Positions 3,445 through 61,315 of a DNA stretch of 64,000 bases are shown here, piece after piece (position 1 is the stretch's first letter; the number at the start of each line of letters is the position of its first letter). A program made the position numbers and the translations under genes. The stretch lies in the IMG/VR virus record IMGVR_UViG_3300026538_000054, positions 1-64,000 of that record. One strand, written 5' to 3'. Origin of the DNA: a virus. Under the pieces are notes generated by a model, which had not been told where the DNA came from, ran no database searches, and saw only the letters and a program-made list of their open reading frames with translations.

Positions 3445-3475
3445 GTAGGAGATCCACGAGAACAAGGATTGAAAC
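3445..3475 (+). promoter_or_regulatory. 31-base leader element, copy A
   Basis: GTAGGAGATCCACG is followed by AGAACAAGGATTGAAAC and then immediately by the ATG of the DNA polymerase. About 26 of 31 bases match the element at 14479-14509. The AAGG part is placed as a ribosome-binding site. The 3' end GGATTGAAAC is also the usual end of many type I CRISPR repeats, so a solitary foreign-type repeat is an alternative reading. Confidence 0.6.
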
Positions 3476-6400
3476 ATGGACCACCAAAGGCTGATTCCTC
3501 CTATGGAGGAGAATGAGTTGCCGCCGGGCCCCTCCTTTCTCGAGCAGGCCGAGCTCATGGGCGGCGGCAACTCCCTTGTAGAACTGCGACGAGACGTTCT
3601 CTACCGAAACGGGACGTGTCTGAACGTTCGGGTCAAGAAGGCGATCGTCACCGTCTCCTGCATCATCGGGCATCTCTGGGGCGAGGAGCTGCCCAGAGGC
3701 CCCGTCCCGGCTGACGTGATGGTCGTTGGCAAGTGGCCCGGCGATCAGGAGGCCTCGGCCCGAAGAAACCTGACCGGCCCGTCGGGCATCATGCTCTCCG
3801 AGTGTCTGAAAGAAGCCGGCGTCACGGGTGACGTGCAGGGAGGCCTCTACGTCACCAACCTGGTCAAACACCCCAGGGCCGACCCGTCTACGGACCAGGT
3901 CTCCTCCACGCAGTTCAAGGACTGGGCCCCGGTCCTTTCCGACGAGATCGCGCTGGTCAGGCCCAAGCTCATTCTCGCCCTGGGCGCCGAGGCCGCCAAG
4001 GCCGTGCTTGGCGCGAAGACGGCCGTCAAGGACGCGCAGTGCTGCTACTTCGAGCGGCAAGTCAGGGCCTTTGGCGAACATCCCGCCTACGCGGCCAGGG
4101 TCGTGGTGGTGACCCACCCTGCGGCCGTGGTGCGCTCCCCGGAGCAGCGCGCCTTCTTCATGGACGGGCTGCGTTACTTCGCAGGCGCCCTTCAGGGCAA
4201 GGTGCAGGCCAAGGAAGCGCCTGTGGACCATCGCGTGGTCTTTGAAGAGGACGAGCTTGCGCAAGTCGTGGACATGGTGATTCAGCGAGGAGGTCCGTCA
4301 CCCCTCATCGTCGTTGACGCCGAGTGGCACGGCGAGCACCAGTCGGAGAACGGCGCTTACCTACGTACCATCCAGTTCTCCGATCAACCGCGCTTCGGCT
4401 GCTGCGTGGTCTTGAGAGGGCAAGGAGGCGGCCCTGGTTTCTGCCCGTCGATCTCCCGCGCCGTCCCTCACCTGCGCAGGCTGTTGACCTCCTCTCCCGG
4501 AAGAGAAGTGCGCATCGCCGGCCACCATCTGCGTGCCGACATCCCGCGCATTTATCACGAGCTGGACAAGGAGCTGGGGCTGGCCCTGATGCGCCAGTAC
4601 GAGGCCGCCAAGAGCCCGGAGGAGATGCGCACCAGGGGCGGCCACGACACCATGCTCATGGCCCACGCGATCAGGGAGACCGGCTTCGCCGAGGGCTTCA
4701 AGCTGGAGTACGTGGCGCAGTCGCTTTTGGGGATGAAGCGCTGGAACGTCGAGCTGGAGCAGTGGAAGCACGACTACTGCCTCAAGCGAAAGATCCCGCA
4801 GAAACATCTGGAGGGTTATGGCGAGTGTCCTGACGAGGTTTTGCACCTTTACTCGATATACGACGTGGATGGCCCACAGAGGCTGCTCGAGCTCTTCACC
4901 AGGCCCGGCGGGCTTCTCGATGCGGACGAGCACGGCAACTCCTCCTGGTTGCCCTACTGGATCAGCATGCGGGCGCAGCAAGCATGGCTCGAGATCGAGA
5001 TGACTGGCCTCTACACCGACAAGAAGGAGAGAGGCCGAGAGCTCACGGAGACCTATCACCAGGCCGCCGTCGCGCTTCTTCAGGAGCTGAAGGTTGACGC
5101 GAACTGGACTGCGTTCAACCCTGGCAGCCACTTCGACTGTCGGGAGCTGCTTTTCGGCGAGCAGTACGCGGGCCGGAAGGACGACCGGACCAGGCCTCAG
5201 GGCGCGGTGTCGCTCTATCTCACTCCCGTCAGGACCACGGGCAAGCCGCCCAAGAACTGGGAAAAGGTGGTAGCTCGCAATGAGCAAGGGCTTTATACGC
5301 CATCGACTGACAAGGAGGTCCTGGGCATCCTTGCGCCCGGTAACCCCCTGGTGAAGAAGCTGCGCAACTGGCGCTTCCTGAGGCAGGTCACTACCAACTC
5401 TCTCAGGGCCCCTGAGACCGACGATGATGGACTGGTGGTGGAGGGCGATGACGGCGAGCCCTTGCAGCTGGGTGGTCTCCTGGGCTCGGTCCGCAGGGAT
5501 GGCCGGATCTACTCGCACTTCTTCCAGACGCAGGAGACAGGCAGGGCGCGATCCGTTAGGCCCAACCTGATGAACTGTACGAAGAGGAGGGAGAAGGACT
5601 ACAAGAAGATCCTTGGTGCGCACTACAAGTACGCCGTCCGTAGCATGTTCACGGCCACGCCCGTGGCGGAGGGCGAGGACCCCTGGCTGCTTGTGGACTT
5701 CGATCTCAAGGGTGCCGAGCTGATGATGACGGCCATCCAGGCGGCCGATCCCGTCATGCTTGACCATTGCCGTCGCAACAACCTGGATGAGGACGACCCG
5801 AACTATTACGACATCCACTCTGCGACGGCCGTGCGAGCCTTTAAGCTGCCATGCCCGCCTACCAAGAAGGGCCTGGAAGGTATCGGCAGGGAGAACTTGC
5901 GCATAGCCGCCAAGTGCGTTGTCTCAGGCTCCAGGCTCCAGACCACGGCTGGCTGGTTTCTGGTCGACTCGCTAGCGGGCGATCTTCCGCCTGACCAGGG
6001 CCGTCTCCATACCGGTGGCCTGGGAGTAGTCAATCACGTCTCGACGACGCCGGTCGTTGGCGTCTACAACGGCGGCGTCAAGCCGTGTCTGCGGGTCGAG
6101 ACCGAGGACGGCTACTCGCTGGAGAGTACGTACACGCATCGCTACTGGGTCATGGGCCCTGACGGCGACATGGTCTTCAAGCAGGCTGGCGATCTTCGGC
6201 TCGGCGACTGGGTGGTTGTGCGTGACGCGGTCGGCCCCTTCGGCGACGATATTGCGTTCCCGAAGGTCCCCTGCTCGCCCAGGACGAGCTTCAAGCCCGT
6301 CGATTTCCCCGAGGAGTTCACCGAGGACTGGGCCGCCTTCCTGGGCCTTTATATCTCTGAGGGCTGGTCCGATCCGGTGAGCGGCGCGGTGGCGATGCAC

Positions 6401-7882
6401 CTTGCGCGAGAGAAAGACCCCGAGCTGGCGGACTTGACGATCGATTTGTACAGACGCCTGTTCGGGGGCCGACCACGTTTTGAAAGCGCCTTCCCCACTG
6501 GCTACCAGGAGCAGACGCGCTACCTGATTAGTTCTGTGGCTCTCGCTCGGTGGATCTACGCGTTCTGCCCAGGGAAAGCTGAGCAGAAGCGCGTGCCGGA
6601 CTTTGTCTTCCGCTGGCCGGAACGGTTGCTAGCGGTTTTTCTGCGCTGGTTGTTCGAGGGCGACGGCTCGATCACCAGGAACAAGACGTCCTTCAAACCG
6701 CGTTACTCGACGTCCAGCCTGGGCCTGGCTCGCGACGTCCGTACGCTGCTTCTCTCCTTCGGCATCACTTGTCACTTGGTCAAAGAGCGACGAGAGGGAT
6801 ACGACAACGACTATTACGCCATAGAGGTCAAGTCGCATCGGTCGAGGATGCGTTTCGCCGAGAAGATCGGCTGCGTTACGAAGTTGAAGACCGACCGGCT
6901 CAAGGTGACCTCGCGATACCAACGAGACTGCTACCCGATACCAGGGCAGCTCAACCGTCTTTTGGCAGTCATGCCCGGCTTGCGCGGCGTGGCCAGGGAG
7001 AAGTGTCGGGAGTGCATCCGGGAGAACGTGCGCGTCGCGTTCAACCGCGTTCGGCTCGTGATGATTATCAAGTCGGCAGACGAGGCGCTTCTGGACGAGA
7101 ACGGTCGCAAGTCCCTGGCAGCGCTTCGTGAGCTCCATCTGGCTCAGATGACGTTCCAGCAGGTAACGGCGTTGATAGACATAGGCGAGCGGCAGGTTTA
7201 CGACGTTCAGACCACTGACGAGCAGAGGCATATCGTCTCCTATGACGGTCTGTTAACTCATCAAACTTGTCTGTTCGGCCTACTGTACGGACGTGGAGAT
7301 GATGCCGTCGTTCGGGCCGTCAAGGAAGAGGAGGTGGACATCACCGCTGAGGAGGCGGCCACGGTTCGCGAGGGCATCTTTGAGGCCTACGCCGGCTTGT
7401 TGCCCTTCTTCGCGTCGGCACAGAGATGTGTGATCAGGCCTGGGCATATCACGAACTGCTTCGGACGACATCGTCGTTTCCCGATGACGAACGATCGGGA
7501 AGCGCTTGAAAAGATGAAGAGGGAGGCTGCCAACTTCAACATCCAGTCGGGCATCGCCGACCTGGTCAGCCGTTGGATGGACAAGCTCTACTCTTACCCC
7601 GGCCGCTTCTTCTCCGACGGTTCGCCGCGCTATCGCCTGGTGTTGCAGCTGCACGATGCGCTCATGGCCGAGTGCCGGGCCAGCCAACTGAGTTGGTTCT
7701 GCGAGGTCGTCATCCCTTCCACCCTGGCCTCCATCCCCGTCTACCGCTGTGACATGGACGGTAAGCGGCTCTCCGCCGAGCCGTTCCATCTCTCCACCGA
7801 CATCGACGTGCAGTACCGCTGGGGCGAGACGCTCACGCCCGAGTTGGCTGATAAGTTGCATGTTCCGCCCGACCTGATCTAG
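3476..7882 (+). CDS. Family A DNA polymerase with N-terminal UDG-like domain, containing an intein
   Basis: 1468 codons including the intein; the spliced protein would be 1018 residues. Residues about 78-235 look like a uracil-DNA glycosylase superfamily domain: GKWPGDQEA (85-93), TNLVKHPR (127-134), ILALGAEA (166 on) and THPAAV (213-218). A DEDD-type 3'-5' exonuclease domain follows, with D281 and E283 in VVDAEWHG. The family A polymerase domain has motif A DFDLKGAEL from D741, motif B RIAAK continuing as TCLFGLLYG across the intein, and motif C LHDALMAE with D1394. The gene sits downstream of helicase and primase. Fusion of a UDG-like domain to the polymerase suggests scanning or repair of uracil during replication; whether it is active is unknown. 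Confidence 0.9.
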   Translation: MDHQRLIPPMEENELPPGPSFLEQAELMGGGNSLVELRRDVLYRNGTCLNVRVKKAIVTVSCIIGHLWGEELPRGPVPADVMVVGKWPGDQEASARRNLTGPSGIMLSECLKEAGVTGDVQGGLYVTNLVKHPRADPSTDQVSSTQFKDWAPVLSDEIALVRPKLILALGAEAAKAVLGAKTAVKDAQCCYFERQVRAFGEHPAYAARVVVVTHPAAVVRSPEQRAFFMDGLRYFAGALQGKVQAKEAPVDHRVVFEEDELAQVVDMVIQRGGPSPLIVVDAEWHGEHQSENGAYLRTIQFSDQPRFGCCVVLRGQGGGPGFCPSISRAVPHLRRLLTSSPGREVRIAGHHLRADIPRIYHELDKELGLALMRQYEAAKSPEEMRTRGGHDTMLMAHAIRETGFAEGFKLEYVAQSLLGMKRWNVELEQWKHDYCLKRKIPQKHLEGYGECPDEVLHLYSIYDVDGPQRLLELFTRPGGLLDADEHGNSSWLPYWISMRAQQAWLEIEMTGLYTDKKERGRELTETYHQAAVALLQELKVDANWTAFNPGSHFDCRELLFGEQYAGRKDDRTRPQGAVSLYLTPVRTTGKPPKNWEKVVARNEQGLYTPSTDKEVLGILAPGNPLVKKLRNWRFLRQVTTNSLRAPETDDDGLVVEGDDGEPLQLGGLLGSVRRDGRIYSHFFQTQETGRARSVRPNLMNCTKRREKDYKKILGAHYKYAVRSMFTATPVAEGEDPWLLVDFDLKGAELMMTAIQAADPVMLDHCRRNNLDEDDPNYYDIHSATAVRAFKLPCPPTKKGLEGIGRENLRIAAKCVVSGSRLQTTAGWFLVDSLAGDLPPDQGRLHTGGLGVVNHVSTTPVVGVYNGGVKPCLRVETEDGYSLESTYTHRYWVMGPDGDMVFKQAGDLRLGDWVVVRDAVGPFGDDIAFPKVPCSPRTSFKPVDFPEEFTEDWAAFLGLYISEGWSDPVSGAVAMHLAREKDPELADLTIDLYRRLFGGRPRFESAFPTGYQEQTRYLISSVALARWIYAFCPGKAEQKRVPDFVFRWPERLLAVFLRWLFEGDGSITRNKTSFKPRYSTSSLGLARDVRTLLLSFGITCHLVKERREGYDNDYYAIEVKSHRSRMRFAEKIGCVTKLKTDRLKVTSRYQRDCYPIPGQLNRLLAVMPGLRGVAREKCRECIRENVRVAFNRVRLVMIIKSADEALLDENGRKSLAALRELHLAQMTFQQVTALIDIGERQVYDVQTTDEQRHIVSYDGLLTHQTCLFGLLYGRGDDAVVRAVKEEEVDITAEEAATVREGIFEAYAGLLPFFASAQRCVIRPGHITNCFGRHRRFPMTNDREALEKMKREAANFNIQSGIADLVSRWMDKLYSYPGRFFSDGSPRYRLVLQLHDALMAECRASQLSWFCEVVIPSTLASIPVYRCDMDGKRLSAEPFHLSTDIDVQYRWGETLTPELADKLHVPPDLI
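5915..7264 (+). other. Intein with LAGLIDADG homing endonuclease, in polymerase motif B
   Basis: 450 residues (814-1263 of the precursor). It starts with Cys (CVVSGSRL, splicing block A), has a block B-like ESTYTHRYWV, two LAGLIDADG motifs (FLGLYISEGW near 955 and FLRWLFEGDGS near 1055) and ends with block F/G YDVQTT then LLTHQ. The next residue is Thr. Removing the segment restores a standard motif B (RIAAK-TCLFGLLYG), which fixes both borders. The last intein residue is Gln rather than the usual Asn, a known but less common variant. The two dodecapeptide motifs suggest the homing endonuclease may still be functional. Confidence 0.93.
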
Positions 7883-11996: not shown

Positions 11997-12033
11997 CTAC
12001 CAAAGCCCTCTGTAGCGGGCTAGAAGCTGCAAA
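11997..12033 (+). repeat. Solitary CRISPR-repeat-like element
   Basis: 37 bases with the array-repeat core AAAGCCCTCTGTAGCGGGCT followed by AGAAGCTGCAAA. The GCCC/GGGC stem bases are kept. A truncated second copy begins near 12049 (CTACCAAAGACCTCTG). It lies about 65 bases upstream of the next gene start and in the same sense. Confidence 0.85.
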
Positions 12034-14404: not shown

Positions 14405-14441
14405 GTCGCAGCATTGAGCCCGCCGCAGAGGGCTTTGATAC
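14405..14441 (-). repeat. Solitary CRISPR-repeat-like element, minus strand
   Basis: Read on the minus strand it is a 37-base copy of the array repeat with AAAGCCCTCTGCGGCGGGCT and ending ATGCTGCGAC. It lies between two + strand genes, so it is not in the sense of its neighbours. Confidence 0.85.
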
Positions 14442-14478: not shown

Positions 14479-14509
14479 GTAAGAGACCTACGAGAAAAGG
14501 GATTGAAAC
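14479..14509 (+). promoter_or_regulatory. 31-base leader element, copy B
   Basis: GTAAGAGACCTACG then AGAAAAGGGATTGAAAC, four bases before the ATG at 14514. Near-identical to 3445-3475. AAGGG may serve as the ribosome-binding site, but conservation extends well beyond that. Confidence 0.6.
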
Positions 14510-17346: not shown

Positions 17347-17380
17347 TTTCTACCTACTAGGTGTCAATATTTCTTGCCGC
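17341..17380 (+). promoter_or_regulatory. Repeated promoter-like element, copy 1
   Basis: CCTTAA at 17341, 18 bases, CAATAT at 17365-17370 preceded by TGT (an extended -10 arrangement), then TCTTGCCGC. The same layout occurs at 42103, 47051, 58535 and 62021. It is followed at once by a hairpin and then the gene at 17447. Confidence 0.65.
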
Positions 17381-24099: not shown

Positions 24100-24547
24100 C
24101 TCGAAGATGACCGATGAGATCGAGGCGGCCGTGCGTTGGTGGGTAAGCGCCTTGCGCAGCCCGCACTTTGACAACGGCGACGCGCTTACGAGCGGCCTCG
24201 CCAGGATGGCCGCCTTACAGGTGAGTGTGTCGGAGGAGGCCCTGGCTACGTTCGGTCGCCTTCTCTCGGAGAGGCTGCCGGCTTTCCTTCGGGCTGGCTG
24301 GTGGGACAAGGCCATCGCCGAAAACTGCCAGTCTCTTGGCTCTGCCGCCCGCGTGCTCGTCTGCGACTACGGCCCTGGCGGTCTTCTGCGCGACTGCGCC
24401 AGCGACGCCGGCGTGTCTGGGCTGCGGTTCCCTTTCAAGACCTGTATGCGTATCAACCCCGGCTGCGTTCAGGTAGGTTGCGGTTACCGAGCGCCGTTCG
24501 AGGTGATACACGGTGACGTTCAGCCACGCCAGGACGACGAACCATGA
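24083..24547 (+). CDS. Conserved hypothetical phage/metagenome protein
   Basis: 154 residues, ATG at 24083 with GAGGGAGGCC upstream. The pattern EIEAAVRWWVSALRSP, FDNGD, then VCDYGPGGLLRDCASDAG resembles a hypothetical family I recall from phage and metagenome sequences; its function is unknown. Last gene before the CRISPR region. Confidence 0.6.
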   Translation: MDLVRDSKMTDEIEAAVRWWVSALRSPHFDNGDALTSGLARMAALQVSVSEEALATFGRLLSERLPAFLRAGWWDKAIAENCQSLGSAARVLVCDYGPGGLLRDCASDAGVSGLRFPFKTCMRINPGCVQVGCGYRAPFEVIHGDVQPRQDDEP

Positions 24548-24616
24548 CCGAGGAGTAATAGTTCTGGCCAACAAGCAGTTTGAGCACCTTTTGGAGGACC
24601 AGTACGATGGCGAACA

Positions 24617-24653
24617 GTCGCAGCATTCAGCCCGCTGCGGAGGGCTTTGGTCC
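24617..24653 (-). repeat. Solitary CRISPR-repeat-like element, minus strand
   Basis: 37 bases, on the minus strand AAAGCCCTCCGCAGCGGGCT with ending ATGCTGCGAC. It lies in the 401-base gap upstream of cas12. That gap (24548-24948) also holds the + strand copy at 24787; I see no supported gene in it. Confidence 0.88.
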
Positions 24654-24786
24654 AGCGGTCATCGTAGCACGTGCTAACTCTGTCGCCCGTCGAAATGAGC
24701 GCTCGCGAGTGGCTGATACAGGTCTGCGAGGCCCACAGGGCCAGGCAGCCATGGCGTCTTGTTGATTCACAGGCAGGTCCTTAACC

Positions 24787-24823
24787 GCGCCAAGGCTCTC
24801 TGCAGCGGACTAAATGCTGCAAA
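24787..24823 (+). repeat. Degenerate CRISPR-repeat-like element upstream of cas12
   Basis: GCGCCAAGGCTCTCTGCAGC then GGACTAAATGCTGC. Diverged in both stem arms (GGCTC and GGACT instead of AGCCC and GGGCT). It lies 126 bases before the cas12 start, in the same sense, so it could be part of its regulatory region. Confidence 0.75.
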
Positions 24824-24948
24824 ACCAATCGGTCCCACCTTTCAGGCCCCCTCTGTTGCTACCGTACATCCGTTCACAGAGTCAGGGCCTGCGCGGCGGC
24901 GCGGTAGCCGCGGCTGGCGATCCGGCCGACCCATGAAGGAGCGCTATC

Positions 24949-26835
24949 TTGAGCGAACAACTTGACGACACGCCCGAACAACCGAACGAGGTCGAAGAGA
25001 CCAAGAAGAGGAAACAACGCAACAAAGGCAAGCACCCGGCCAGGATCTGGAGCGTCTTCTCCAGATACCTGGTCTCGGGGCGTGAGCACTTCGACAAGCA
25101 GGTGCTCCTGGCCCATCGGTTCAGGAACAAGCTCGTGGAGCTGGAGCTCCAGCGGCGCGCCGCCGCCAACGTCGTGATCGCGCAGGCCTCTTCCGAGCTG
25201 CAGCCTTTGATCGACGCCCTGGCCGCCGCTGAGCAGGTTCTCGAAGTCAGTCTTCAAGAGCTGAAGGCCGTGAGGGCCAAGCACAGGAGAAGGGCTGAAA
25301 GCGCGGCGCAACGAGATGCTGTCACCAACGCGAGGACGGCTAGGAACCAGGCCTCCAAGGCCCTCTCTAAAGCCAGGAAGGACGCCTTCGCTTCCGAGGC
25401 GGCGCAGGTCGGCCTCTGGCTTGCGGAGGAGCACCACTTCCAGGCCGTCCTGGCCGCCCGTCATGCTTTCATCAACGACGGCCTCTACTGGCCGACGGCC
25501 ACGGACGTCCAGGACCGTGCGCGCGCCATGCGAAAGGGTGCCCCTCCCGTCTTCAGGCGGTTCGGCGGCGCGGAGCAAGCGGGCCGCATCGCCGTCCAGA
25601 TCCAGAAGAGCACCGACAAGTCCCAGTCTGAGGGCGGCATCACCTTTGAGGAGGCCTTCTCCTGCTCCCACGGCTTCTTCCGGCTGGAGAAGAAGCCAGG
25701 GCGCGACCCTTTGCCAGAGATCGCCGACCAGCCCGACTACAAGTCCAAACGGCAACAGCTCCTGACCTACGCCCGCGCCTGGCTGCGCGTCGGCTCGGAG
25801 GGCAAGGGCGCCAGGGCCAAGCCCTGCTGGGTCGTCGCCGATGTGCTTCTCACCCGGCAGGCCCCCAAGACGGCGCGGATCGTCCAGGTCTACCTGGACC
25901 ACTCGGTGATCGGCGATCGAGAGCGCTGGCGACTCAGCTTGGTGCTCACCAACCAAGAGGGCTGGCCCAAGCCCAACCGGGCCTCGGGCTGCATGGTCGG
26001 TATTGACCTCGGCTGGCGACTGCTCGATACCGGTGAGCTGCGAGTCGCCTACGCCTGCGGCGCCGATGGACAGCACCACGAGCTGCGGCTGCCCGCCTCC
26101 CTGGTCAAGGTCTGGCGCCGGCCCGATCGCATCCAGCAGGAGAGGGACAACCTCTTCAACGACGTCAAGGCGAGGCTCCTTGAGTGGCTCAAAGGGAGGG
26201 AGGACCTTCCCGACTGGCTCAAGGAGCAAGCGGAGCATCTGCATCTCTGGAAGTCATCCACCAGGCTCTCGCGGCTGGTGGATCACTGGGCCGGTCGAGA
26301 TATCAACTGGTCGAGCCAGAGGCGCATCGCCGGGGACGAGGAGATCCTCGCGTCCTTGCGCGGCTGGGTGAAACGCAACCTCCACCTGCGCGACTACCAG
26401 TATCACGAGCGTGAGCAGTTGGCGGCCCATCGTCTTGATGTCTACAGGAAGTGGGCTGACGGTCTGGCCAGGCTCTACCAGACGGCCGTCCTCGAAGACG
26501 CCGACTGGCGAGACCTAGCGCGACTCCCATCGCCTGAAGACGACGCCGTCAACGAGACCGCGCGCTACAACCAACGCATGGCCTCGCCCGGTCTACTGGC
26601 CTCCGTGATCACGAACATGTTCGCGATCACGAGCAGGGTGGAGTGCGCGAACACCACCAGGGAGTGCTGGCGCTGCGGCCATACGGAGGCGTTCGACGCC
26701 GAGGCGCAGTTGATCAGGGTTTGTCCTGGCTGCGGTGATGCGTGCGACCAAGACGAGAGCGCTGCTCGCGTCCTGCTCGCGAGAGGGCAGGCCCTAAACC
26801 AGTCACAAGTCGCCGAAGCTGCGCCAAGTTCTTGA
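24949..26835 (+). CDS. Compact Cas12-family (type V) CRISPR effector, Cas12m-like
   Basis: 628 residues from TTG at 24949, with AAGGAG upstream. The split RuvC nuclease domain is readable: RuvC-I GIDLGWRL with D353, RuvC-II TAVLEDADW with E516, a zinc ribbon CWRC (573-576) and CPGC (592-595), and RuvC-III DQDESAARVLL with D602. The N-terminal 340 residues are basic and partly coiled-coil, consistent with guide-RNA and PAM recognition lobes. It is larger than TnpB and much smaller than Cas12a. The GxDLGWR plus ELRVAYA signature and the size recall Cas12m/V-U1; other small phage Cas12 types are possible. Characterised Cas12m proteins bind rather than cut DNA, although all three acidic residues seem present here. 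No cas1, cas2 or cas4 is nearby; the CRISPR array follows. Confidence 0.85.
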   Translation: MSEQLDDTPEQPNEVEETKKRKQRNKGKHPARIWSVFSRYLVSGREHFDKQVLLAHRFRNKLVELELQRRAAANVVIAQASSELQPLIDALAAAEQVLEVSLQELKAVRAKHRRRAESAAQRDAVTNARTARNQASKALSKARKDAFASEAAQVGLWLAEEHHFQAVLAARHAFINDGLYWPTATDVQDRARAMRKGAPPVFRRFGGAEQAGRIAVQIQKSTDKSQSEGGITFEEAFSCSHGFFRLEKKPGRDPLPEIADQPDYKSKRQQLLTYARAWLRVGSEGKGARAKPCWVVADVLLTRQAPKTARIVQVYLDHSVIGDRERWRLSLVLTNQEGWPKPNRASGCMVGIDLGWRLLDTGELRVAYACGADGQHHELRLPASLVKVWRRPDRIQQERDNLFNDVKARLLEWLKGREDLPDWLKEQAEHLHLWKSSTRLSRLVDHWAGRDINWSSQRRIAGDEEILASLRGWVKRNLHLRDYQYHEREQLAAHRLDVYRKWADGLARLYQTAVLEDADWRDLARLPSPEDDAVNETARYNQRMASPGLLASVITNMFAITSRVECANTTRECWRCGHTEAFDAEAQLIRVCPGCGDACDQDESAARVLLARGQALNQSQVAEAAPSS

Positions 26836-27015: not shown

Positions 27016-28304
27016 GTGACAAAGCCCTGTGCAGCGGGCTCAAAGCTGCGACGGGTCGTGAGCCGTCTGCTCGAGACGGTCGGCGATCTGGTGACAAAGC
27101 CCTGTGCAGCGGGCTCAAAGCTGCGACTCGCTCATGGTTGCGTTCCTTTCGGTGGACCCGGTGGTGACAAAGCCCTGTGCAGCGGGCTCAAAGCTGCGAC
27201 TACAAGACCTGGATGACGATCTTCCCCAACGTCCCGCAGTGACAAAGCCCTGTGCAGCGGGCTCAAAGCTGCGACGTTGTCCGGCGGCTTCGGCTCGACC
27301 TGGATGATCTCGTGACAAAGCCCTGTGCAGCGGGCTCAATGCTGCGACGTACTATGTACCGGAAAAGGCTCTCGAGGAGGCCGTGTGACAAAGCCCTGTG
27401 CAGCGGGCTCAAAGCTGCGACGGCGGCTGTCTTCGAGTTCGCCTCCGGGAGGAGATGGTGACAAAGCCCTGTGCAGCGGGCTCAAAGCTGCGACTAATGC
27501 TCCTTTAACAGGCGGAACGCTTCTTCCGCCGTGACAAAGCCCTGTGCAGCGGGCTCAAAGCTGCGACAAACCGTGCCGAAAGGTATCCTCATGTCCGATT
27601 CGTGACAAAGCCCTGTGCAGCGGGCTCAAAGCTGCGACGTGCTGCTCGGGCTGCTCGGGCTGCTTGGGCTGCTTGGGGTGACAAAGCCCTGTGCAGCGGG
27701 CTCAAAGCTGCGACCGGCAAGCTGGACGTTCAGCGAGCGGCCGACGTGATGTGACAAAGCCCTGTGCAGCGGGCTCAAAGCTGCGACTAGCTGGCTGCCT
27801 TGCACGACTGCGCAAATGCCCGGAAGTGACAAAGCCCTGTGCAGCGGGCTCAAAGCTGCGACTGGGTGCGCGTTGACCAGGACAACCGCGAGCTGATCGG
27901 TGACAAAGCCCTGTGCAGCGGGCTCAAAGCTGCGACTCCAGCAACTGGGGCCCAGGCCGACCCTCGGGCACATCGTGACAAAGCCCTGTGCAGCGGGCTC
28001 AAAGCTGCGACGACCGGCGTTCCTCAAGTCGCAACACGGCCTTGCCAGGTGACAAAGCCCTGTGCAGCGGGCTCAAAGCTGCGACGCACATGTGTTCTTT
28101 TGTCCCCTGCTTCGCCACCGTGTAACAAAGCCCTGTGCAGCGGGCTCAAAGCTGCGACGGTTGCTGCCGACCGCTTGGTCGCGGAGGAGGTTCGCGTGCC
28201 AAAGCCCTCCCCAGTGGGCTAAAAGCTGCGACCGCCACTCCGTCACTTGAATGCTGTCGGTCTTTTTGTGCCAAAGCCCTACGCAGCGGGCTACAAGCTG
28301 CAAC
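27016..28304 (+). CRISPR. CRISPR array, 18 repeats, 17 spacers
   Basis: The repeat is 37 bases: GTGACAAAGCCCTGTGCAGC followed by GGGCTCAAAGCTGCGAC. Repeats start at 27016, 27091, 27164, 27239, 27312, 27385, 27458, 27531, 27602, 27678, 27751, 27826, 27900, 27975, 28049, 28122, 28196 and 28268. Fourteen are identical. 27312 has CAATGCTG instead of CAAAGCTG, 28122 starts GTAAC, and the last two are strongly degenerate, which marks the right end as the trailer. Spacers are 34-39 bases. Spacer 1 (27053-27090) matches this same window exactly at 37632-37669. Spacer 9 (27639-27677) is low-complexity. I found no other internal match by eye. The repeat can form an AGCCC/GGGCT stem. The 121 bases between the hairpin and the first repeat are the leader. 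Confidence 0.97.
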
Positions 28305-32267: not shown

Positions 32268-32750
32268 ATGGCCCGTGGTGCTGCTTGGTGGGACCGGTTC
32301 TTCCTGGGCATGGCGCAGTACGTCTCGACGGCGTCTAAAGACCCCAGCACGAAGGCTGGCGCCGTGGTTGTGGATGACAAACGCAGGGTCGTAAGTGTCG
32401 GCTACAACGGCTTCGCACGCGGCGTGGTTGACGACCCTGCACGCTACACTAATCGCGAGCTCAAGTACAAAATGATCCTGCACGCTGAGCGCAACGCGCT
32501 ACTGTTTGCCGGCCGATCGCTTGAGAACTGCGTCCTCTACACCTGGCCGTTCATGACCTGCTCCGTCTGCGCGGCGATGGTCATCCAGACCGGTATCGTT
32601 CGGTGTGTCGCCCCTCCCATACCTGACCATCTGCAAGCTCGCTGGGGCGAGGACATGGCCCTGGCCGCGACCATGCTCCGCGAGGCCGGCGTCAGTCTGG
32701 TCGTTTATGAGGGGGAGATCAACGAGCGCAAGGACTGTTGCAGCACGTAG
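32268..32750 (+). CDS. dCMP/cytidine deaminase-like enzyme
   Basis: 160 residues. Typical deaminase order: KDPSTKAGAVVVDD, VSVGYNGFARG, the zinc ligand and catalytic Glu in LHAERNAL, and the second zinc site FMTCSVCAAMVIQTG, where the usual Pro-Cys is Thr-Cys. It probably makes dUMP from dCMP for phage thymidylate supply. The 3' end overlaps a CRISPR-like repeat at 32742. Confidence 0.8.
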   Translation: MARGAAWWDRFFLGMAQYVSTASKDPSTKAGAVVVDDKRRVVSVGYNGFARGVVDDPARYTNRELKYKMILHAERNALLFAGRSLENCVLYTWPFMTCSVCAAMVIQTGIVRCVAPPIPDHLQARWGEDMALAATMLREAGVSLVVYEGEINERKDCCST

Positions 32751-32778
32751 CCCTCTGCAGCGGGCTGAAAGCTGCGAC
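32742..32778 (+). repeat. Solitary CRISPR-repeat-like element
   Basis: TAGCCCTCTGCAGCGGGCT followed by GAAAGCTGCGAC; the 5' third is diverged. It overlaps the last nine bases of the deaminase gene, including its stop. Confidence 0.8.
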
Positions 32779-33197: not shown

Positions 33198-33234
33198 GTC
33201 GTAGCTTTTAGCCCGCTACGGAGGGCTTCGGCAC
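33198..33234 (-). repeat. Solitary CRISPR-repeat-like element, minus strand
   Basis: On the minus strand: GAAGCCCTCCGTAGCGGGCT then AAAAGCTACGAC. It lies 31 bases upstream of the leftward exported-protein gene and in its sense. Confidence 0.85.
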
Positions 33235-35543: not shown

Positions 35544-35635
35544 CATATTCGGACCGCCACGAAAGCAACCATGTTTCTCAGCAATTCTCAGCAACAAGGC
35601 CGCTGAGAAGGCCTTCATCTCTGATGGTAGCAACC

Positions 35636-36862: not shown

Positions 36863-36899
36863 TAATGCTGGCCCTCTGCAGCGGGCTGAATGCTGCAAA
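36863..36899 (+). repeat. Solitary CRISPR-repeat-like element
   Basis: GGCCCTCTGCAGCGGGCT followed by GAATGCTGCAAA; the 5' part is diverged. Begins seven bases after the regulator stop. The ATGCTGCAAAA end is repeated once immediately after. Confidence 0.8.
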
Positions 36900-36933
36900 A
36901 ATGCTGCAAAAAGAAATGGGCCGAGCGCCAAGC

Positions 36934-37030: not shown

Positions 37031-37204
37031 GTACCAGAGCCATACGCAGCGGGCTAAAAGCTGCGAAGGATGGCGACCTGTGTCAAAGCCCTGCGCAGCG
37101 GGCTGAATGCTGCGAGAGGATGTCCCACTCCCTGGCCACGGTGGGTGACAAAGCCCTTTGCAGCGGGCTTAAAGCTGCGACGCAGCGGGGTAAGTGCTGT
37201 AACA
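37031..37204 (+). repeat. Cluster of three CRISPR-like repeats plus one fragment
   Basis: Copies at 37031-37067, 37080-37116 and 37145-37181, and a truncated one (GCAGCGGGGTAAGTGCTG) at 37183-37204. The copy at 37145 (GTGACAAAGCCCTTTGCAGC) is close to the array consensus. Intervals are only 12 and 28 bases, too short for normal spacers. The cluster lies directly upstream of the gene that array spacer 1 matches. Confidence 0.85.
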
Positions 37205-37223: not shown

Positions 37224-37724
37224 ATGTCCGAACACGAGTTGCTGCGCTCCATCAATCAACGCCTCGCACACATAGGCCGCTCGACGGACGCTATCGCCTC
37301 GGCTGTCTTCCTTATCGTGCGAAAGTTGCTCGATGAGGAGCAAGGTGGCCTGTCGCCCGAAGACGCCGCCAAAGTGCTCGCCCGACTGACGGCCCACGAC
37401 CAAGCTCTCGAGGACATCGTCGCCGAGCAAACCGACGAGAGCTCTTCCACGCTCGGCAAACACCACTCAGTAGCGAGAACCGCGATGGCTATTCCGCAAG
37501 CCTTGCAGGACATCTTGGCCAAGATTGACGCCGACACCAGCGCCCTGGCCGCGGTGGTCCTGGACCTGCGCAACAAGATCAGCACGGGCATGTCCCAGGA
37601 GGACGTGGTCGCCGTACAGACCACCCTGGGTCAGATCGCCGACCGTCTCGAGCAGACGGCTCACGACCCCAACGCGCCGGTGCCGCCCGGCCCTCAACCG
37701 GTCTTCGCCGGCCGCAAGCCGTAA
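37224..37724 (+). CDS. Coiled-coil phage protein, target of array spacer 1
   Basis: 166 residues from ATG at 37224. Two similar helical modules, IASAVFLIVRKLLDEEQGG and LAAVVLDLRNKISTGMS, each followed by a coiled-coil helix, with a PNAPVPPGP tail. Similar short coiled-coil proteins occur beside phage tail and virion genes. The gene is framed by two 40-bp perfect palindromes, preceded by a CRISPR-repeat cluster, and contains the exact protospacer of spacer 1 at codons about 137-149. Confidence 0.65.
   Translation: MSEHELLRSINQRLAHIGRSTDAIASAVFLIVRKLLDEEQGGLSPEDAAKVLARLTAHDQALEDIVAEQTDESSSTLGKHHSVARTAMAIPQALQDILAKIDADTSALAAVVLDLRNKISTGMSQEDVVAVQTTLGQIADRLEQTAHDPNAPVPPGPQPVFAGRKP
37632..37669 (-). 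other. Protospacer matching array spacer 1 (38 of 38)
   Basis: The minus strand from 37669 to 37632 is identical to spacer 1 at 27053-27090 (starts GGGTCGTGAGCCGTC, ends GGTCGGCGATCTG). The five bases 5' of the protospacer on that strand are CGTTG, so TTG is adjacent, as expected for T-rich type V PAMs. The 3' flank (ACCCAG) differs from the repeat, so the array itself is distinguishable from the target. Confidence 0.95.
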
Positions 37725-37820: not shown

Positions 37821-37925
37821 CGTTTTGTCGCGTGCGTGTTAACCTGGCGACAGGCCTACTCGGCGGCCTAATAGCCGAGAAGTAGCCTAGAACGGAAAAA
37901 GAAACGAGCTAATAGCTAAAAGAAA

Positions 37926-42102: not shown

Positions 42103-42142
42103 GCGGCAAGAGATATTGACATCTTTTTGGTAGGAATTAAGC
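42103..42142 (-). promoter_or_regulatory. Repeated promoter-like element, copy 2 (leftward)
   Basis: On the minus strand: GCTTAA (42142-42137), 18 bases, CAATAT (42118-42113) preceded by TGT, then CTCTTGCCGC. A GC-rich hairpin region and then the gene at 42029 follow. Same layout as 17341, 47051, 58535 and 62021. Confidence 0.7.
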
Positions 42143-54601: not shown

Positions 54602-54657
54602 GAGTCACGTCCCACAGCGTCGACTAACCTGTCGCTGTGCGAGGTAAGATGGCAGCG

Positions 54658-54767
54658 GTTCCAAAGCCCTGTGTAGCGGGCTAAAAGCTGCAACCGGTAG
54701 ACGGGGTGGCGCGAGAGCCACGGCTCGGCCGTGCCAAAGCCCTCTGCAGCGGGCTGAAAGCTACAAA
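54658..54767 (+). repeat. Two-repeat mini-CRISPR array
   Basis: Repeats at 54658-54694 (GTTCCAAAGCCCTGTGTAGC start) and 54731-54767 (GTGCCAAAGCCCTCTGCAGC start), period 73 bp with a 36-base spacer (54695-54730). The period equals that of the main array. It lies 39 bases before the gene at 54807 and in its sense. Confidence 0.88.
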
Positions 54768-54806
54768 AAATCTGCAACATGCCGCGGATACCGCCAAGAG
54801 GCTCCA

Positions 54807-56297
54807 ATGCCATCTATCAGACACCAGGGGCCTCTTCTCCTTGGCGCCTCCCGCGCCTTTCACAAGATCGCCGCTCCTCTCTCTGACGACAACCTGGTGC
54901 AAACGGCCAGAGATCACGGCGGCGAGTACCTGGGCGAGATGGCACGGCGCCTGGTCGCCCAGGGCATGCGCGACCAGGTGCAACAGGCCCTTGATCAGTC
55001 CGTGTTCGCATCGGGCATCAACTCGACGAGGGAGAAGCGCCTGCGCCTTAACCAGCTCCTGGTACGGGCCTACCACAGCCCGACGTCCAGGATGCTGGCC
55101 GGCCTGGGCCCTTCTCTTTCAGGCGCCCCTGCCAAGAGAGAGGCCACCGCTCCGGCCGCCTCGCAAGGCGCCGCCATCACCGCGGGAGGGCAAGCTCCTG
55201 CGCCCGCTCCTTTGGTCACAGGCCCCCTCTCTCAGCCGCAAACACAGCAGCCGCTCAAGGACCACTCGCCCGAGCGCATCTACTCCGAGGGCGTGCCGGA
55301 AAGACAACCAACCACGCAGCGGGAGCTCATGCAGGACCGGCAAGCTCTTCAGCCTTCGAGGGAGGTCCGCGAACAGACGCCCGGCAGTGCGGCCGACCTT
55401 TATCACGACTACGCCAACTGGGCCGAAGAGAACCTCGGCAAGTCCATGGGCCTGGAGACCGCCTGGGGCCTCGTCCCCTTACTGGGCGGCGCGCCTGACG
55501 TCGCGAAGGGCATGGCGGCCATGGATGAGGGCCGTCGCTGGGACGCGATGCGCCACTACGGCATGGGCCTTCTCGGCACCATCCCTGGCGCGAAGTTGTT
55601 GACCCGAGGAGGCATGGGACTAACCGCCGGCATGCGCGCCGCTCAGGTGGCTGGTCGAGTTGCTCAAACGGCCAGTCACGTAGCGCCTGTGGTCACGGCT
55701 GGCGCGCGTGGTCTGCAAGCCGTCGAGCATGCCGCCCCTGCCGTGGCCTCGGCCGCCGCTCCGTCGCTAACTCGCAGGGTCGCCACGACCACGGGCCGTG
55801 TGGTTGGTCAGACCGCCGGTCAGATTGCTGCCGGCGGCGCCATCGGCGCCGGCGCCGCGTTGGGAGAGTCCATCGAGAACGCAGGCACTCTAAGGCAGTC
55901 GCTTGCCACGGCGGACCAAGCAGAGCGGTCACGTGCTCAGGCCTTCCTCGACCAGGTCAACAAGAGGCGTGCTTATCTCAACTCCCTGGTGCCAGGGGTC
56001 AACATCGGGGCCCAGGCCCCCGCCACCCTGGAGGCCGTCTCTCAGCCCGGTGCGCTTTCGCGTTTTTCCACCGAGGCCGATCTCCACGAACTGGCCGCCC
56101 ATCCTGCCTGGCAAGAGACTGTCAGGCGACACACCCCCGGCTGGGGCGGCGCTGCCAGCAGAGAAAGTCTTCTGGGGCACGTGTCCCAGAACCTTGGCTT
56201 CGATCTCTCCAGGCCTGTTGCGCCACAGGCCGCTCCCGCTGCGCCGGCGGCCCCTGCGCCAGCTCCTGCCCCGACGCCCACGCCGCCTGCGCCTTGA
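54807..56297 (+). CDS. Virion-like protein
   Basis: 496 residues from ATG at 54807. Helical N-terminus, a Pro/Gln linker, then an Ala/Gly-rich helical core (MGLETAWGLVPLLGGAPDVA, GAIGAGAALGES) and an Ala/Pro tail. The middle resembles hydrophobic segments of toxin-carrying or ejection proteins. No enzymatic motif seen. Confidence 0.55.
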   Translation: MPSIRHQGPLLLGASRAFHKIAAPLSDDNLVQTARDHGGEYLGEMARRLVAQGMRDQVQQALDQSVFASGINSTREKRLRLNQLLVRAYHSPTSRMLAGLGPSLSGAPAKREATAPAASQGAAITAGGQAPAPAPLVTGPLSQPQTQQPLKDHSPERIYSEGVPERQPTTQRELMQDRQALQPSREVREQTPGSAADLYHDYANWAEENLGKSMGLETAWGLVPLLGGAPDVAKGMAAMDEGRRWDAMRHYGMGLLGTIPGAKLLTRGGMGLTAGMRAAQVAGRVAQTASHVAPVVTAGARGLQAVEHAAPAVASAAAPSLTRRVATTTGRVVGQTAGQIAAGGAIGAGAALGESIENAGTLRQSLATADQAERSRAQAFLDQVNKRRAYLNSLVPGVNIGAQAPATLEAVSQPGALSRFSTEADLHELAAHPAWQETVRRHTPGWGGAASRESLLGHVSQNLGFDLSRPVAPQAAPAAPAAPAPAPAPTPTPPAP

Positions 56298-56820: not shown

Positions 56821-56930
56821 GTTGCGGCATCCAGCCCGCCGCACAGGGCTTTGACACACGGTGAGACTGGGCGTAGCGTCATCGGTTCACGATGTTGCAG
56901 CTTTCAGCCCGCTGCAGAGGGCTTTGGAAC
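56821..56930 (-). repeat. Two-repeat mini-CRISPR array, minus strand
   Basis: Copies at 56894-56930 and 56821-56857, both minus strand, period 73 bp, spacer 36 bases (56858-56893). It lies four bases after the excisionase-like gene and antisense to it, so it cannot be its promoter. Confidence 0.88.
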
Positions 56931-57068: not shown

Positions 57069-57105
57069 CCATCTAAGCCCTGTGCAGCGGGCTCAATGCT
57101 GCAAA
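57069..57105 (+). repeat. Solitary CRISPR-repeat-like element
   Basis: TAAGCCCTGTGCAGCGGGCT followed by CAATGCTGCAAA. Very close to the array consensus, including the CAATG variant seen in array repeat 5. It faces the 3' end of the integrase gene. Confidence 0.88.
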
Positions 57106-57118
57106 GCGTTGTCGAATA

Positions 57119-58249
57119 TCAGCGACCCATCCTCTCTTTCTCGTCGGCCTTTTTCAGCGCTTCCGCAGCCAGGTCGCCCGCCCGCGAGACGTCCTCGGCG
57201 CTCAGGTGCAAGTAGTGCTTGGCCATGGTCAGGCTGGTCCAGCCGCCCAGAAGCTGCAACTGCGGCCCGGTGGCCCCGCCTCTGGCCGCCTGGGTCAGGA
57301 TCGTGTGTCTGCTGGAGTAGGCCACGAGTTGTTCGCCGTCTTTTTCTTCCACGCTCGCTCTTTCTCTCAGCCGCCGAAACCAGACGCAGAAGTAGTCCTT
57401 GGTCCAGCGACCGCCCTCGGAGTTGGGAAAGAGCGGCAGGCTCTCCACTCCCGGTCGCTTCTTCTCCAGCCAGACGATCATCTTCATGAGCGGCGCGGGC
57501 AGGCTGATCACCCTGGGCGCCTTGGCCTTGGTCGTCCTGGCCGTCTTGTGCTGCCTGAGGATCAGGAGCCGCTTCTCTTTATCCAGCATCGAGCGCTGCG
57601 CCGTTCTCATCTCCCCCGGCCGCATGCTGGTGAGCCGCAGCGCGTAAAGGGCGATCTTCTGCTCGGGCGCCTTGCAGGCCGCGAGTAGCCTGCGAAACTC
57701 CTCGTTGGTCATGAGCCTGGACCTCGGCTCGGCGGACAGCCTCTTGACGCCGGCGGCCGGGCCGTCGTCGGCGAGCAGCTCGGCCTCTTTCCAGCCCCAG
57801 CGCCAGAGCCTTCGCAGCGCCCTGATCACGTTGTTGACCGTGGCCGGCTTGTACTTCTCGGCCATGTCGTTTCGCAGCTTGAGCACGTCCGCCTTCTTGA
57901 CCCTCCCCACGCGCCAGCCCTTCCAGGCCCTGAGGGCGTAGCGGAACTGCTCCTTGTAGAACTCGTAGGTCCTTTCCGCCTTCGTGGCCTTGACGTCGTC
58001 GAGGAAGAGATCAACGAGCTTGGTCAGGGGCATGTTGGCCCCTTCTCGTCCTCCCTGCGCCTGTCGGCCCTGGAGCTTCGCCAGGGCCTTGGCCGCCTCC
58101 GCCTCGGTGTCCGCCAGGAAGGTCCTCTCCTTGCCGGCGTCGGTGTACCAGCCGTCTCTCCAGAAGAAAGGCTTCGCTCTTCGGGGCACGCGCCACCTCT
58201 TTTCCGGCCCTAACCTGTCCGATCTCGTCTGATCAACTAAAACTGACAC
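57119..58249 (-). CDS. int: Tyrosine recombinase (integrase)
   Basis: 376 residues on the minus strand; GTG at 58249 is the longest start and may be slightly too long. An N-terminal KPFFWRDGWYTDAGK segment, a SAM-like core-binding domain (residues about 75-160) and a catalytic domain with R210 (TSMRPGEM), K235, R314 and H315 in YSSRHT (Tyr replaces the usual first His), W337 and the nucleophile Y346 in MAKHYLHL. It suggests a temperate phage or integrated element. Repeats upstream form a candidate attP. Confidence 0.85.
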   Translation of the reverse strand: MSVLVDQTRSDRLGPEKRWRVPRRAKPFFWRDGWYTDAGKERTFLADTEAEAAKALAKLQGRQAQGGREGANMPLTKLVDLFLDDVKATKAERTYEFYKEQFRYALRAWKGWRVGRVKKADVLKLRNDMAEKYKPATVNNVIRALRRLWRWGWKEAELLADDGPAAGVKRLSAEPRSRLMTNEEFRRLLAACKAPEQKIALYALRLTSMRPGEMRTAQRSMLDKEKRLLILRQHKTARTTKAKAPRVISLPAPLMKMIVWLEKKRPGVESLPLFPNSEGGRWTKDYFCVWFRRLRERASVEEKDGEQLVAYSSRHTILTQAARGGATGPQLQLLGGWTSLTMAKHYLHLSAEDVSRAGDLAAEALKKADEKERMGR

Positions 58250-58517
58250 GAAAACTGACAGGGGTCTGTTTCACATTACCCATCTCCAACAGCCGTAAGA
58301 GGTTGCGACCTGGAAAGACAAGAAAGCTCGCACGCCTGGCACATGGGCGAGCGCTGTTCCAACGCCTTCACCTCTTCTGCGCCTTAGCTCAGCTAATGCC
58401 TTTCATCGCAACCACTTACGGCAACCAAGTCAACGAGCGACACGCTCGATGACGGTGCTTTTCTTACCTGATTGCGACTCGTTTGACCACGGGAAAACTG
58501 ACAGGAAAACTGACACC
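58237..58517. other. Candidate attP region with integrase arm-type repeats
   Basis: GAAAACTGACA-type repeats occur in pairs at 58237-58262 and 58493-58517. Between them GCCGTAAGAGGTTGCGA (58292-58308) and TCGCAACCACTTACGGC (58406-58422) form a 17-bp inverted repeat with one mismatch. Paired arm repeats flanking core-like sites beside int is the usual attP layout. No gene is seen in 58250-58534. Confidence 0.5.
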
Positions 58518-58534
58518 ACCCTGGCAGGTATTAA

Positions 58535-58574
58535 GCTAAAATCTCTCCTGAAACGTGTCAATATCTCTTGCCGC
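58535..58574 (+). promoter_or_regulatory. Repeated promoter-like element, copy 4
   Basis: GCTAAA (58535-58540), 18 bases, CAATAT (58559-58564) preceded by TGT, then CTCTTGCCGC. It lies 36 bases before the gene at 58611. Confidence 0.7.
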
Positions 58575-58610
58575 TCTTTAGCCAGCGGTTACTGTTCCGC
58601 GTACGGAGAG

Positions 58611-58880
58611 ATGTCCATGAGCGACGAGACGAAGACCGTGGCGCCCCTGACGAACGCCAAGCCCGAGACCAGGCCGCTGACCCCGTTCGTACTTCGCTGT
58701 CCCTGCTGTAACGAGGAGAAAGCCAGCTTCGCGCTGTTCCTCGGCAACCTGGGCGACGGCGAAGAAATGCAATGCCAGGAGTGCGACCATACCGTCAACC
58801 TGGATGATGTGAGGGACCTCATCGATCGTTGGTCGGTGTTTCTGGCCTGGCTGGCGTTGTTGCCGGCCGGGAAGGGTTGA
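58611..58880 (+). CDS. Small zinc-ribbon protein
   Basis: 89 residues from ATG at 58611, with CGGAGAG upstream. CPCC and CQEC (residues about 31-56) form a zinc ribbon. The C-terminal helix is hydrophobic. First gene after promoter-like element 4. Confidence 0.6.
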   Translation: MSMSDETKTVAPLTNAKPETRPLTPFVLRCPCCNEEKASFALFLGNLGDGEEMQCQECDHTVNLDDVRDLIDRWSVFLAWLALLPAGKG

Positions 58881-58908
58881 GCGCAGTGCGTAGAAAGGAG
58901 TGTGTGCG

Positions 58909-59166
58909 ATGTTGATCCGTCTGGTGTTGCCGCCCGAGAAGGCGACATTCGCCTGCGTCAAGAAGCTGCCTGGTCTGGATGGTCTGAAGCTCGACGCAAA
59001 GTACGGCCTGGTGCCGATCGGCGGACATGGCTACGTGGTGAGAGCGAAAGGCCCGCCCGAGAACGTCAAGCCGCGGGTCAGCCCGGAGATCCAGAGTTGG
59101 TATCCGGGCCCGCAAGTCTCACCCGTCGGTGAGAAGAAAGGCGAGGGCACAGTATGTCGATCGTGA
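58909..59166 (+). CDS. Small hypothetical protein
   Basis: 85 residues, ATG at 58909 after AAAGGAG. Beta-rich (IRLVLPPEKATFACVKKL). A 15-codon frame starting at 59154 overlaps its end and is probably not real. Confidence 0.5.
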   Translation: MLIRLVLPPEKATFACVKKLPGLDGLKLDAKYGLVPIGGHGYVVRAKGPPENVKPRVSPEIQSWYPGPQVSPVGEKKGEGTVCRS

Positions 59167-59251: not shown

Positions 59252-59288
59252 TCCTTTTAGCCCTCTACAGCGGGCTAAAAGCTGCGAC
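59252..59288 (+). repeat. Solitary CRISPR-repeat-like element
   Basis: TTAGCCCTCTACAGCGGGCT followed by AAAAGCTGCGAC. Its 5' bases merge with the T-run of the terminator. It lies 28 bases upstream of the gene at 59317 and in its sense. Confidence 0.85.
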
Positions 59289-61029: not shown

Positions 61030-61051
61030 GCGAGTTCTTTTACGGCCTCGG

Positions 61052-61163
61052 CAACAAGGCCGCCAGAGAGGCCTGCGTGTAGGATAGCGACCGGAAACTG
61101 TTTTCCGGAAAAGATTGGCTTCCCTCGCTAGTCTACACACAGGCCTCTCTGGCGGCCTTGTTG
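61052..61163. repeat. 112-bp element with 31-bp inverted terminal repeats
   Basis: The left arm 61052-61082 (CAACAAGGCCGCCAGAGAGG start) and right arm 61133-61163 are inverse complements at 30 of 31 positions. A TTTTCCGGAAAA palindrome (61101-61112) sits in the centre. It looks like a MITE or a large cruciform. Related fragments are near 35591 and 61333. Confidence 0.65.
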
Positions 61164-61207: not shown

Positions 61208-61315
61208 AGACCAAAGCCCTCCGCAATGGGCTAAAAGCTGCGACGGAGGCGGGAATACGCGACGACGCGACGTTCTACTTGCCAAAGCCCTCTGTAGCGG
61301 GCTAAAAGCTGCAAT
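61208..61315 (+). repeat. Two-repeat mini-CRISPR array
   Basis: Repeats at 61208-61244 (AAAGCCCTCCGCAATGGGCT core) and 61279-61315 (AAAGCCCTCTGTAGCGGGCT core), period 71 bp with a 34-base spacer (61245-61278). It lies 78 bases before the gene at 61394. Confidence 0.88.

Follow-up and report, generated by a model that had tools for sequence, protein, structure and literature searches.

A pair of repeats at positions 54658 to 54767 of the window, by which we mean the whole 64,000-nucleotide stretch of DNA analysed here, belongs to a family of about 47 dispersed repeats on one phage contig that are very likely crRNA scaffolds for the Cas12m protein encoded by the same phage. Our preferred reading, to which we give a probability of roughly 0.45, is that this mini-array and the other dispersed repeats are single-guide crRNA units for the phage's own, putatively DNA-binding Cas12m.

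A repeat pair of the Cas12m array family

The window is part of a 199,122-base contig (C51) within a 5.39-Mb genome assembly, and the contig is circular, since its ends share an exact overlap of 100 bases. It encodes an integrase (57119-58189) and an excisionase-like protein; ORF 3476-7882 (1468 aa) matches a uracil-DNA glycosylase domain, a family A DNA polymerase and an intein with LAGLIDADG, and further matches were to a major head protein and a baseplate wedge. Together these genes point to the genome of a tailed phage, perhaps with phage-plasmid status. No tRNA genes were found on the contig, and some of the phage proteins have what we take to be a planctomycete look. Repeat and head-protein searches found no relatives of the phage: the major head protein drew no match from IMG/VR or from 197 further genomes of the family to which the host belongs, and a search of IMG/VR and genome contigs with the repeat pattern gave no match. 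Every clear repeat match in the whole assembly sat on the phage contig, which was also the only source of matches when the host and 60 related genomes were searched.

The cas12m ORF directly precedes the main CRISPR array, whose final two repeats have diverged. In an alignment, the RuvC motifs GIDLGW, VLED and DQD were conserved and the zinc ribbon was present. The phage protein is 29% identical to the effector of pMESIL02, whose host species, Allomeiothermus (Meiothermus) silvanus, has a characterised Cas12m (PMC11013384), and 30% identical to that of Virus Rctr197k. Cas12m proteins, the D-E-D types included, bind DNA without cutting it and need no tracrRNA, and cutting of pre-crRNA has been demonstrated for MsCas12m (PMC11013384, PMC10442227); RNA is cleaved by Cas12m at its own repeat (PMC11013384). 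By analogy, the phage Cas12m is inferred to be a DNA-binding, non-cutting protein that processes its crRNA. The locus has the make-up of type V-M: a single compact Cas12m/V-U1 effector, an adjoining array with 36-37-nt repeats and unique spacers, and a pseudoknot scaffold derived from the 3' end of the repeat. Cas1 was not found in the genome assembly, and a search of the host genome and 397 others from the same phylum turned up no second Cas12m.

Both repeats of the pair at 54658/54731 match the repeat family of the main array. With a matrix built from this family they reach PWM scores of about 52 bits, and the best score anywhere in five Markov simulations of the contig was 7.9, which rules out chance similarity; a known Rfam element was ruled out by a scan of the window in which no family reached its threshold. 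The original prediction had placed the repeats correctly: they start 73 bases apart, they enclose exactly 36 bases, and 39 bases separate the end of repeat 2 from the ATG at 54807. Its claim that the pair shares the period of the main array was borne out as well, since the array spacings range from 71 to 76 and 73 is the commonest. All 11 pairs are formed in repeat 1, one of them as G-U, and a single S2 pair is broken in repeat 2 (C-A); an extra TCTGCAAC lies at about 54772, 3' of repeat 2. The proposal of a two-repeat guide array was thus partly upheld, by the repeat family, the period and the complete pseudoknot of repeat 1. Since all pairs of the repeat 1 pseudoknot are kept, a crRNA with the 36-base segment as its guide could arise. 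A sigma-70 scan of the region near the pair found no promoter, which counts against the guide-unit reading. Two further points found no support. The pair is not an isolated mini-array but part of a set of about 47 repeats dispersed over the contig, and the label of virion gene for the downstream ORF is unsupported, as PHROGs and a tblastn search against phages gave this ORF no match, and its one Pfam match, to the minor capsid family MCPVI (E 0.014), fell short of the threshold.

Table 1 Positions of the Cas12m locus, its repeats and related features in the window
Feature	Position	Strand	Remarks
cas12m (type V-M / V-U1 effector)	24949..26835	+	628 aa; PADLOC Cas12u1 4.9e-75; PDB 23vw Cas12m 2.8e-52
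Main CRISPR array	27016..28304	+	18 repeats of 37 nt, spacers 34-39 nt
Array spacer 1	27053..27090	+	38/38 match to own phage
Array spacer 15	28086..28121	+	34/36 match to own phage at contig position 938 (window orientation), intergenic
Self-protospacer of array spacer 1	37632..37669	-	inside ORF 37224-37724; 5' flank GTTG
Mini-array, repeat 1	54658..54694	+	GTTCCAAAGCCCTGTGTAGCGGGCTAAAAGCTGCAAC; PWM 52.1; Cas12m-type crRNA scaffold, intact
Repeat 1, stem S1	54665-54669 with 54678-54682
Repeat 1, stem S2	54672-54677 with 54687-54692
Spacer-like segment (candidate guide)	54695..54730	+	36 nt
Mini-array, repeat 2	54731..54767	+	GTGCCAAAGCCCTCTGCAGCGGGCTGAAAGCTACAAA; PWM 52.4
Downstream ORF	54807..56297	+	496 aa
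Solo repeat	11997..12033	+	followed by a truncated second copy
Solo repeat	14405..14441	-
Solo repeat	24617..24653	-	upstream of cas12m, antisense to it
Solo repeat	24787..24823	+	125 nt upstream of cas12m
Solo repeat	32742..32778	+
Solo repeat	33198..33234	-
Solo repeat	35585..35621	-	GGCC-type S1, CTCAGC/GCTGAG S2
Solo repeat	36863..36899	+	S2 3' strand duplicated
Three-repeat mini-cluster	37031..37181	+	repeats at 37031, 37080, 37145; spacings 49 and 65; ends 42 nt before ORF 37224
Solo repeat	37845..37881	+	GGCC-type
Second mini-array	56821..56930	-	56821-56857, 56894-56930; 73-nt spacing
Solo repeat	57069..57105	+
Solo repeat	59252..59288	+	28 nt before ORF 59317
Weakest solo repeat	61045..61081	-	score 15.9; GGCC-type
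Mini-array	61208..61315	+	61208-61244, 61279-61315; 71-nt spacing

Pseudoknot scaffolds between the genes of two phages

Besides the 18 array repeats, a PWM scan detected the 47 dispersed copies across the contig on both strands, and simulated contig sequence contained 0 chance copies. A simple gene caller predicted 211 genes on the contig (84.5% coding), and the dispersed copies were essentially all intergenic; the exception is the copy at contig position 121832, which runs into a questionable 50-codon ORF, and a few more reach up to 13 bases into the end of a predicted gene. Between codirectional genes, 30 of 39 copies were in sense orientation and 9 were antisense, and many copies ended 16-64 nt 5' of a start codon. 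Same-strand neighbours were spaced by 44, 49, 53, 58, 64, 65, 68, 71, 72, 73 and 73 bases, with none between 74 and 160; the full spacing of 73 was kept by 54658/54731 and 56821/56894, and 71 was found at 61208/61279. Such spacings, which do not exceed the usual period of the array, are expected of repeat-spacer units with shortening spacers. Some spacers of clustered repeats are 7, 12 or 16 nt long, shorter than the 17 nt of heteroduplex at which Cas12m reportedly works best, and this counts against the guide-unit reading. Directly after several solo repeats there is a second S2 3' strand, e.g. TGCTGCAAAAATGCTGCAAAA (window 36863-36912, 35585 and 37845; contig 6741, 121090 and 149837), and this duplicated strand could be an alternative pairing partner.

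The fold of the scaffold was examined in a gap-free alignment of 47 distinct copies, in which S1 occupies columns 8-12/21-25 and S2 columns 15-20/30-35. The two interleaved helices were paired in 97.7% of 517 cells, leaving 12 unpaired across the dispersed copies, compared with 90.1% after shuffling (0 of 500 shuffles were as high), and pairing was at most 45% when the alignment was slid as a control. Changes on both sides of a pair were found in 46 cells against 7.9 expected. Compensatory examples are GCAGC/GCTGC, GCGGC/GCCGC and CTCAGC/GCTGAG in S2, and AGCCC/GGGCT and AGGCC/GGCCT in S1. In the Cas12m crRNA described in PMC10442227, the pseudoknot joins -22..-17 to -8..-3 and is stacked on a stem, and the 5' end (-36..-30) is disordered; S2 of the phage repeats pairs -23..-18 with -8..-3, in agreement with this geometry. 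Diversity among the dispersed copies was 0.62 in the first six positions and 0.09-0.28 in the stems, and the loop positions 13 and 25, with 0.56 and 0.71, were near random. Drift has thus affected positions for which no need by the effector is reported. The near-random state of the free loop positions indicates that the copies are old, yet their stems pair, and we read the scaffold as having been under selection after or during dispersal.

An alignment search for Cas12m relatives yielded two viral and three genomic loci. One of the viral loci lies on an IMG/VR contig of 152,857 bases, which encodes a Cas12m 32% identical to that of the first phage and has a different repeat of its own in 79 copies on both strands, as an array beside the effector, another uniform array and many degenerate clusters. 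These copies are essentially intergenic as well, with one gene-end overlap of 5 bases and one of 2, and 25 of 54 lie between convergent genes. The geometry is the same: S1 of 5 pairs, a 2-base loop, S2 of 6 pairs and a 4-base loop. S2 was paired in 378 of 384 cells, above the shuffled maximum of 368; S1 pairing was not above that of shuffles. By tblastn, the two phages have only Cas12m and one small protein in common, and the second phage is unrelated and presents an independent case. It has two Cas12m-like genes (G605:C1:8799-10439 and 57415-59082), and the array that we found adjoins the 57415 gene. In Virus Rctr197k and plasmid pMESIL02 no dispersed copies were found and the repeats occur in arrays only, which counts against the guide-unit reading; Rctr197k also has a second, different CRISPR array (L051:14574-14828) beside another transposase-like protein.

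Targets and competing explanations

As a check, the original prediction had proposed to search phage and host genomes with the 36-base segment. The phage itself, the host genome and 50,697 phage records gave no target, and an exact search of IMG/VR with the first 20 bases of the segment found none either, so that the unit consists of two CRISPR repeats of a known family at array spacing with one spacer that matches no virus or mobile element within these scopes. The host-genome search of solo repeats covered 54602-54806 and the cluster at contig position 121090-121949. Array spacers 1 and 15 both match the phage that carries them (Table 1); the match of spacer 15 is exact over its first 20 bases, has the 5' flank AATC and lies outside the window. 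Such self-matching spacers could be tolerated, or used, by a non-cutting effector. The ORF that holds the exact target of spacer 1 is preceded by the three-repeat mini-cluster. The remaining array spacers had no match beyond chance on phage or host, and against phage records the best matches of the array spacers were to a low-complexity GGGCTGCT stretch. Guide starts of the solo repeats gave 9 matches of 12 bases on the phage, compared with 6.5 +/- 5.5 for random intergenic 20-mers; an apparent excess of self-targets over a shuffled-guide control (9 vs 1.45) vanished against these 20-mers. Several of the self-matches involve the gene-start sequence ATGAGCGA.

Guide use of the dispersed scaffolds, as we infer it, would proceed as follows. 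The copies would be transcribed with or between phage genes, each scaffold would be bound by Cas12m and its transcript trimmed, and the 17-20 bases 3' of the scaffold would then guide a complex that binds DNA but does not cut it. On this view every solo repeat or mini-array would be expressed alongside the surrounding genes, supply one guide and block transcription of its target, which could be a gene of the phage itself or a competing element; for the pair at 54658/54731, the 36-base segment would fill the role of guide. We favour this reading because selection on the scaffold implies binding, and a bound scaffold turns the sequence that follows it into a guide. The presence of cas12m and a canonical array on the same phage argues for it, as does the second, unrelated Cas12m phage with the same layout and another repeat, and the 9 antisense copies among the 39 between codirectional genes argue against it, as do the lack of solo-guide targets on the phage above the random level and the lack of a phage or host target for the 36-base segment in the searches described. 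The copies could instead be relics, that is, leftovers of older arrays or units recombined into gene borders, with eroding spacers and no product now, whose paired changes date from active arrays. We consider this unlikely, though a serious contender: spacings that run down from a ceiling at the array period, truncated copies and duplicated half-strands, the diverged last two repeats of the main array, the several degenerate arrays beside uniform ones in the second phage and the absence of found targets all speak for it. Both the ceiling on the spacings and the missing targets would follow from it, but the preserved stems would not, since decay in place should hit stems and loops equally fast, whereas the free positions within the repeat are randomised and only 12 of 517 pair cells are broken.

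Cis-acting RNA elements, in which Cas12m or another protein would bind the pseudoknot in an mRNA and control processing, stability or translation of the neighbouring gene, would fit the predominance of sense copies between codirectional genes of C51, the many copies that end shortly before a start codon and the reported cleavage of RNA by Cas12m at its own repeat (PMC11013384). A leader is not expected between convergent genes, where nearly half of the 54 copies of the second phage lie, and this weakens a leader-type element; the 9 antisense copies in C51 speak against it too, and the array period would have no reason to be an upper bound. We hold this explanation to be distinctly improbable. 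About equally so, or slightly more, is the idea of decoys or competitors, in which RNAs from solo repeats would load Cas12m without a useful guide and, like Racr, damp the phage's own system or block a host or rival Cas12m. Solitary repeat units in phages do inhibit matching systems, type V-A included (PMC10651486), and here conservation covers the scaffold but does not extend to the segment downstream. The described units, however, mostly match a host system and often lack nearby cas genes, whereas this phage owns the effector, neither the host nor the 397 other genomes of its phylum offered another Cas12m, and 47 copies are far above the apparent need. Many short intergenic repeats on both strands of a circular replicon might also be DNA-level repeats such as iterons, partition sites or packaging sites. 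This we find hardly credible, because two interleaved, covarying helices are a signature of RNA and disfavour repeats that act as DNA, and the repeat is identical in family to the CRISPR array beside cas12m.

Other short repeats were also noted in the window. GTARGAGAYCYACGAGAAMARGGATTGAAAC occurs in single copies at 3445-3475 and 14479-14509, just 5' of gene starts. Its end resembles type I/III CRISPR repeats, so the two copies may act as solitary repeat units directed at a system of the host; alternatively, they may be a leader common to both genes that includes a ribosome-binding site. GTGTCAATATNTCTTGCCGC occurs five times, at 17361, 58555 and 62041 (+), at 42103 (-) and at contig position 109165 (window orientation); three of the five copies are 50-86 bases ahead of a predicted gene start, and it is possibly a phage promoter or regulator site.

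Relation to known systems

Type V-M systems, mini-arrays, solitary repeat units and CreR-type regulators are already known (PMC11656645, PMC8616872, PMC10651486, PMC12737573). With type V-M CRISPR-Cas12m (PMC10442227, PMC11013384) the phage locus shares the effector family, a pseudoknot scaffold of about 30 nt, repeats of 36-37 nt, spacers of 34-39 nt and the lack of a detected adaptation gene, whereas the repeats of the pMESIL02 and Rctr197k loci lie in arrays by the effector only and about 47 are dispersed here. Viral mini-CRISPR arrays, reviewed in PMC11656645 and PMC8616872, likewise occur in virus genomes and consist of a single spacer, or a few, flanked by two repeats; they use the repeat and effector of the host and mostly match related viruses, whereas here the repeat belongs with an effector encoded by the phage itself and the searches gave no target. 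Solitary repeat units, the source of Racr anti-CRISPR RNAs, are also single repeats in phage genomes (PMC10651486). This phage differs in that it encodes the matching effector and array itself and has tens of copies, and the host genome yielded neither another Cas12m nor Cas1, nor any system to match. In CreR / CreA, a crRNA-like RNA has a guide that directs a Cas effector to repress a gene (PMC12737573). A solo repeat upstream of cas12m, present here and in a Nitrospirae genome (L075), where it is the only one and lies a few hundred bases from the gene, is similar to this arrangement, but the upstream region of the phage cas12m contained no matching target: apart from itself, the solo repeat at 24787 had no guide-start match of at least 7 bases in 24424-25123. 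With most subscription journals outside the search, no literature report of tens of dispersed scaffolds matching a phage's own effector was found, and this absence hints that such dispersed scaffolds may be new. Array finders would miss most dispersed units because they seek clustered, near-identical repeats.

A wider proposal, which we regard as doubtful, is that large phages with a non-cutting Cas12m have turned the array inside out into dozens of single-guide units in gene gaps, where guides would be produced along with the neighbouring genes; together the units would act as a programmed network that blocks transcription of genes of the phage, the host or a rival. Even if the dispersed repeats are relics, they are a record of the movement and decay of arrays in phages and provide natural variants of the Cas12m scaffold, 47 from one genome and 64 from another. 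If the scaffolds are used, these phages would run a genome-wide set of guide RNAs with a DNA-binding CRISPR effector and no conventional array, which would be a new CRISPR genome layout and a possible path from immunity to gene regulation.
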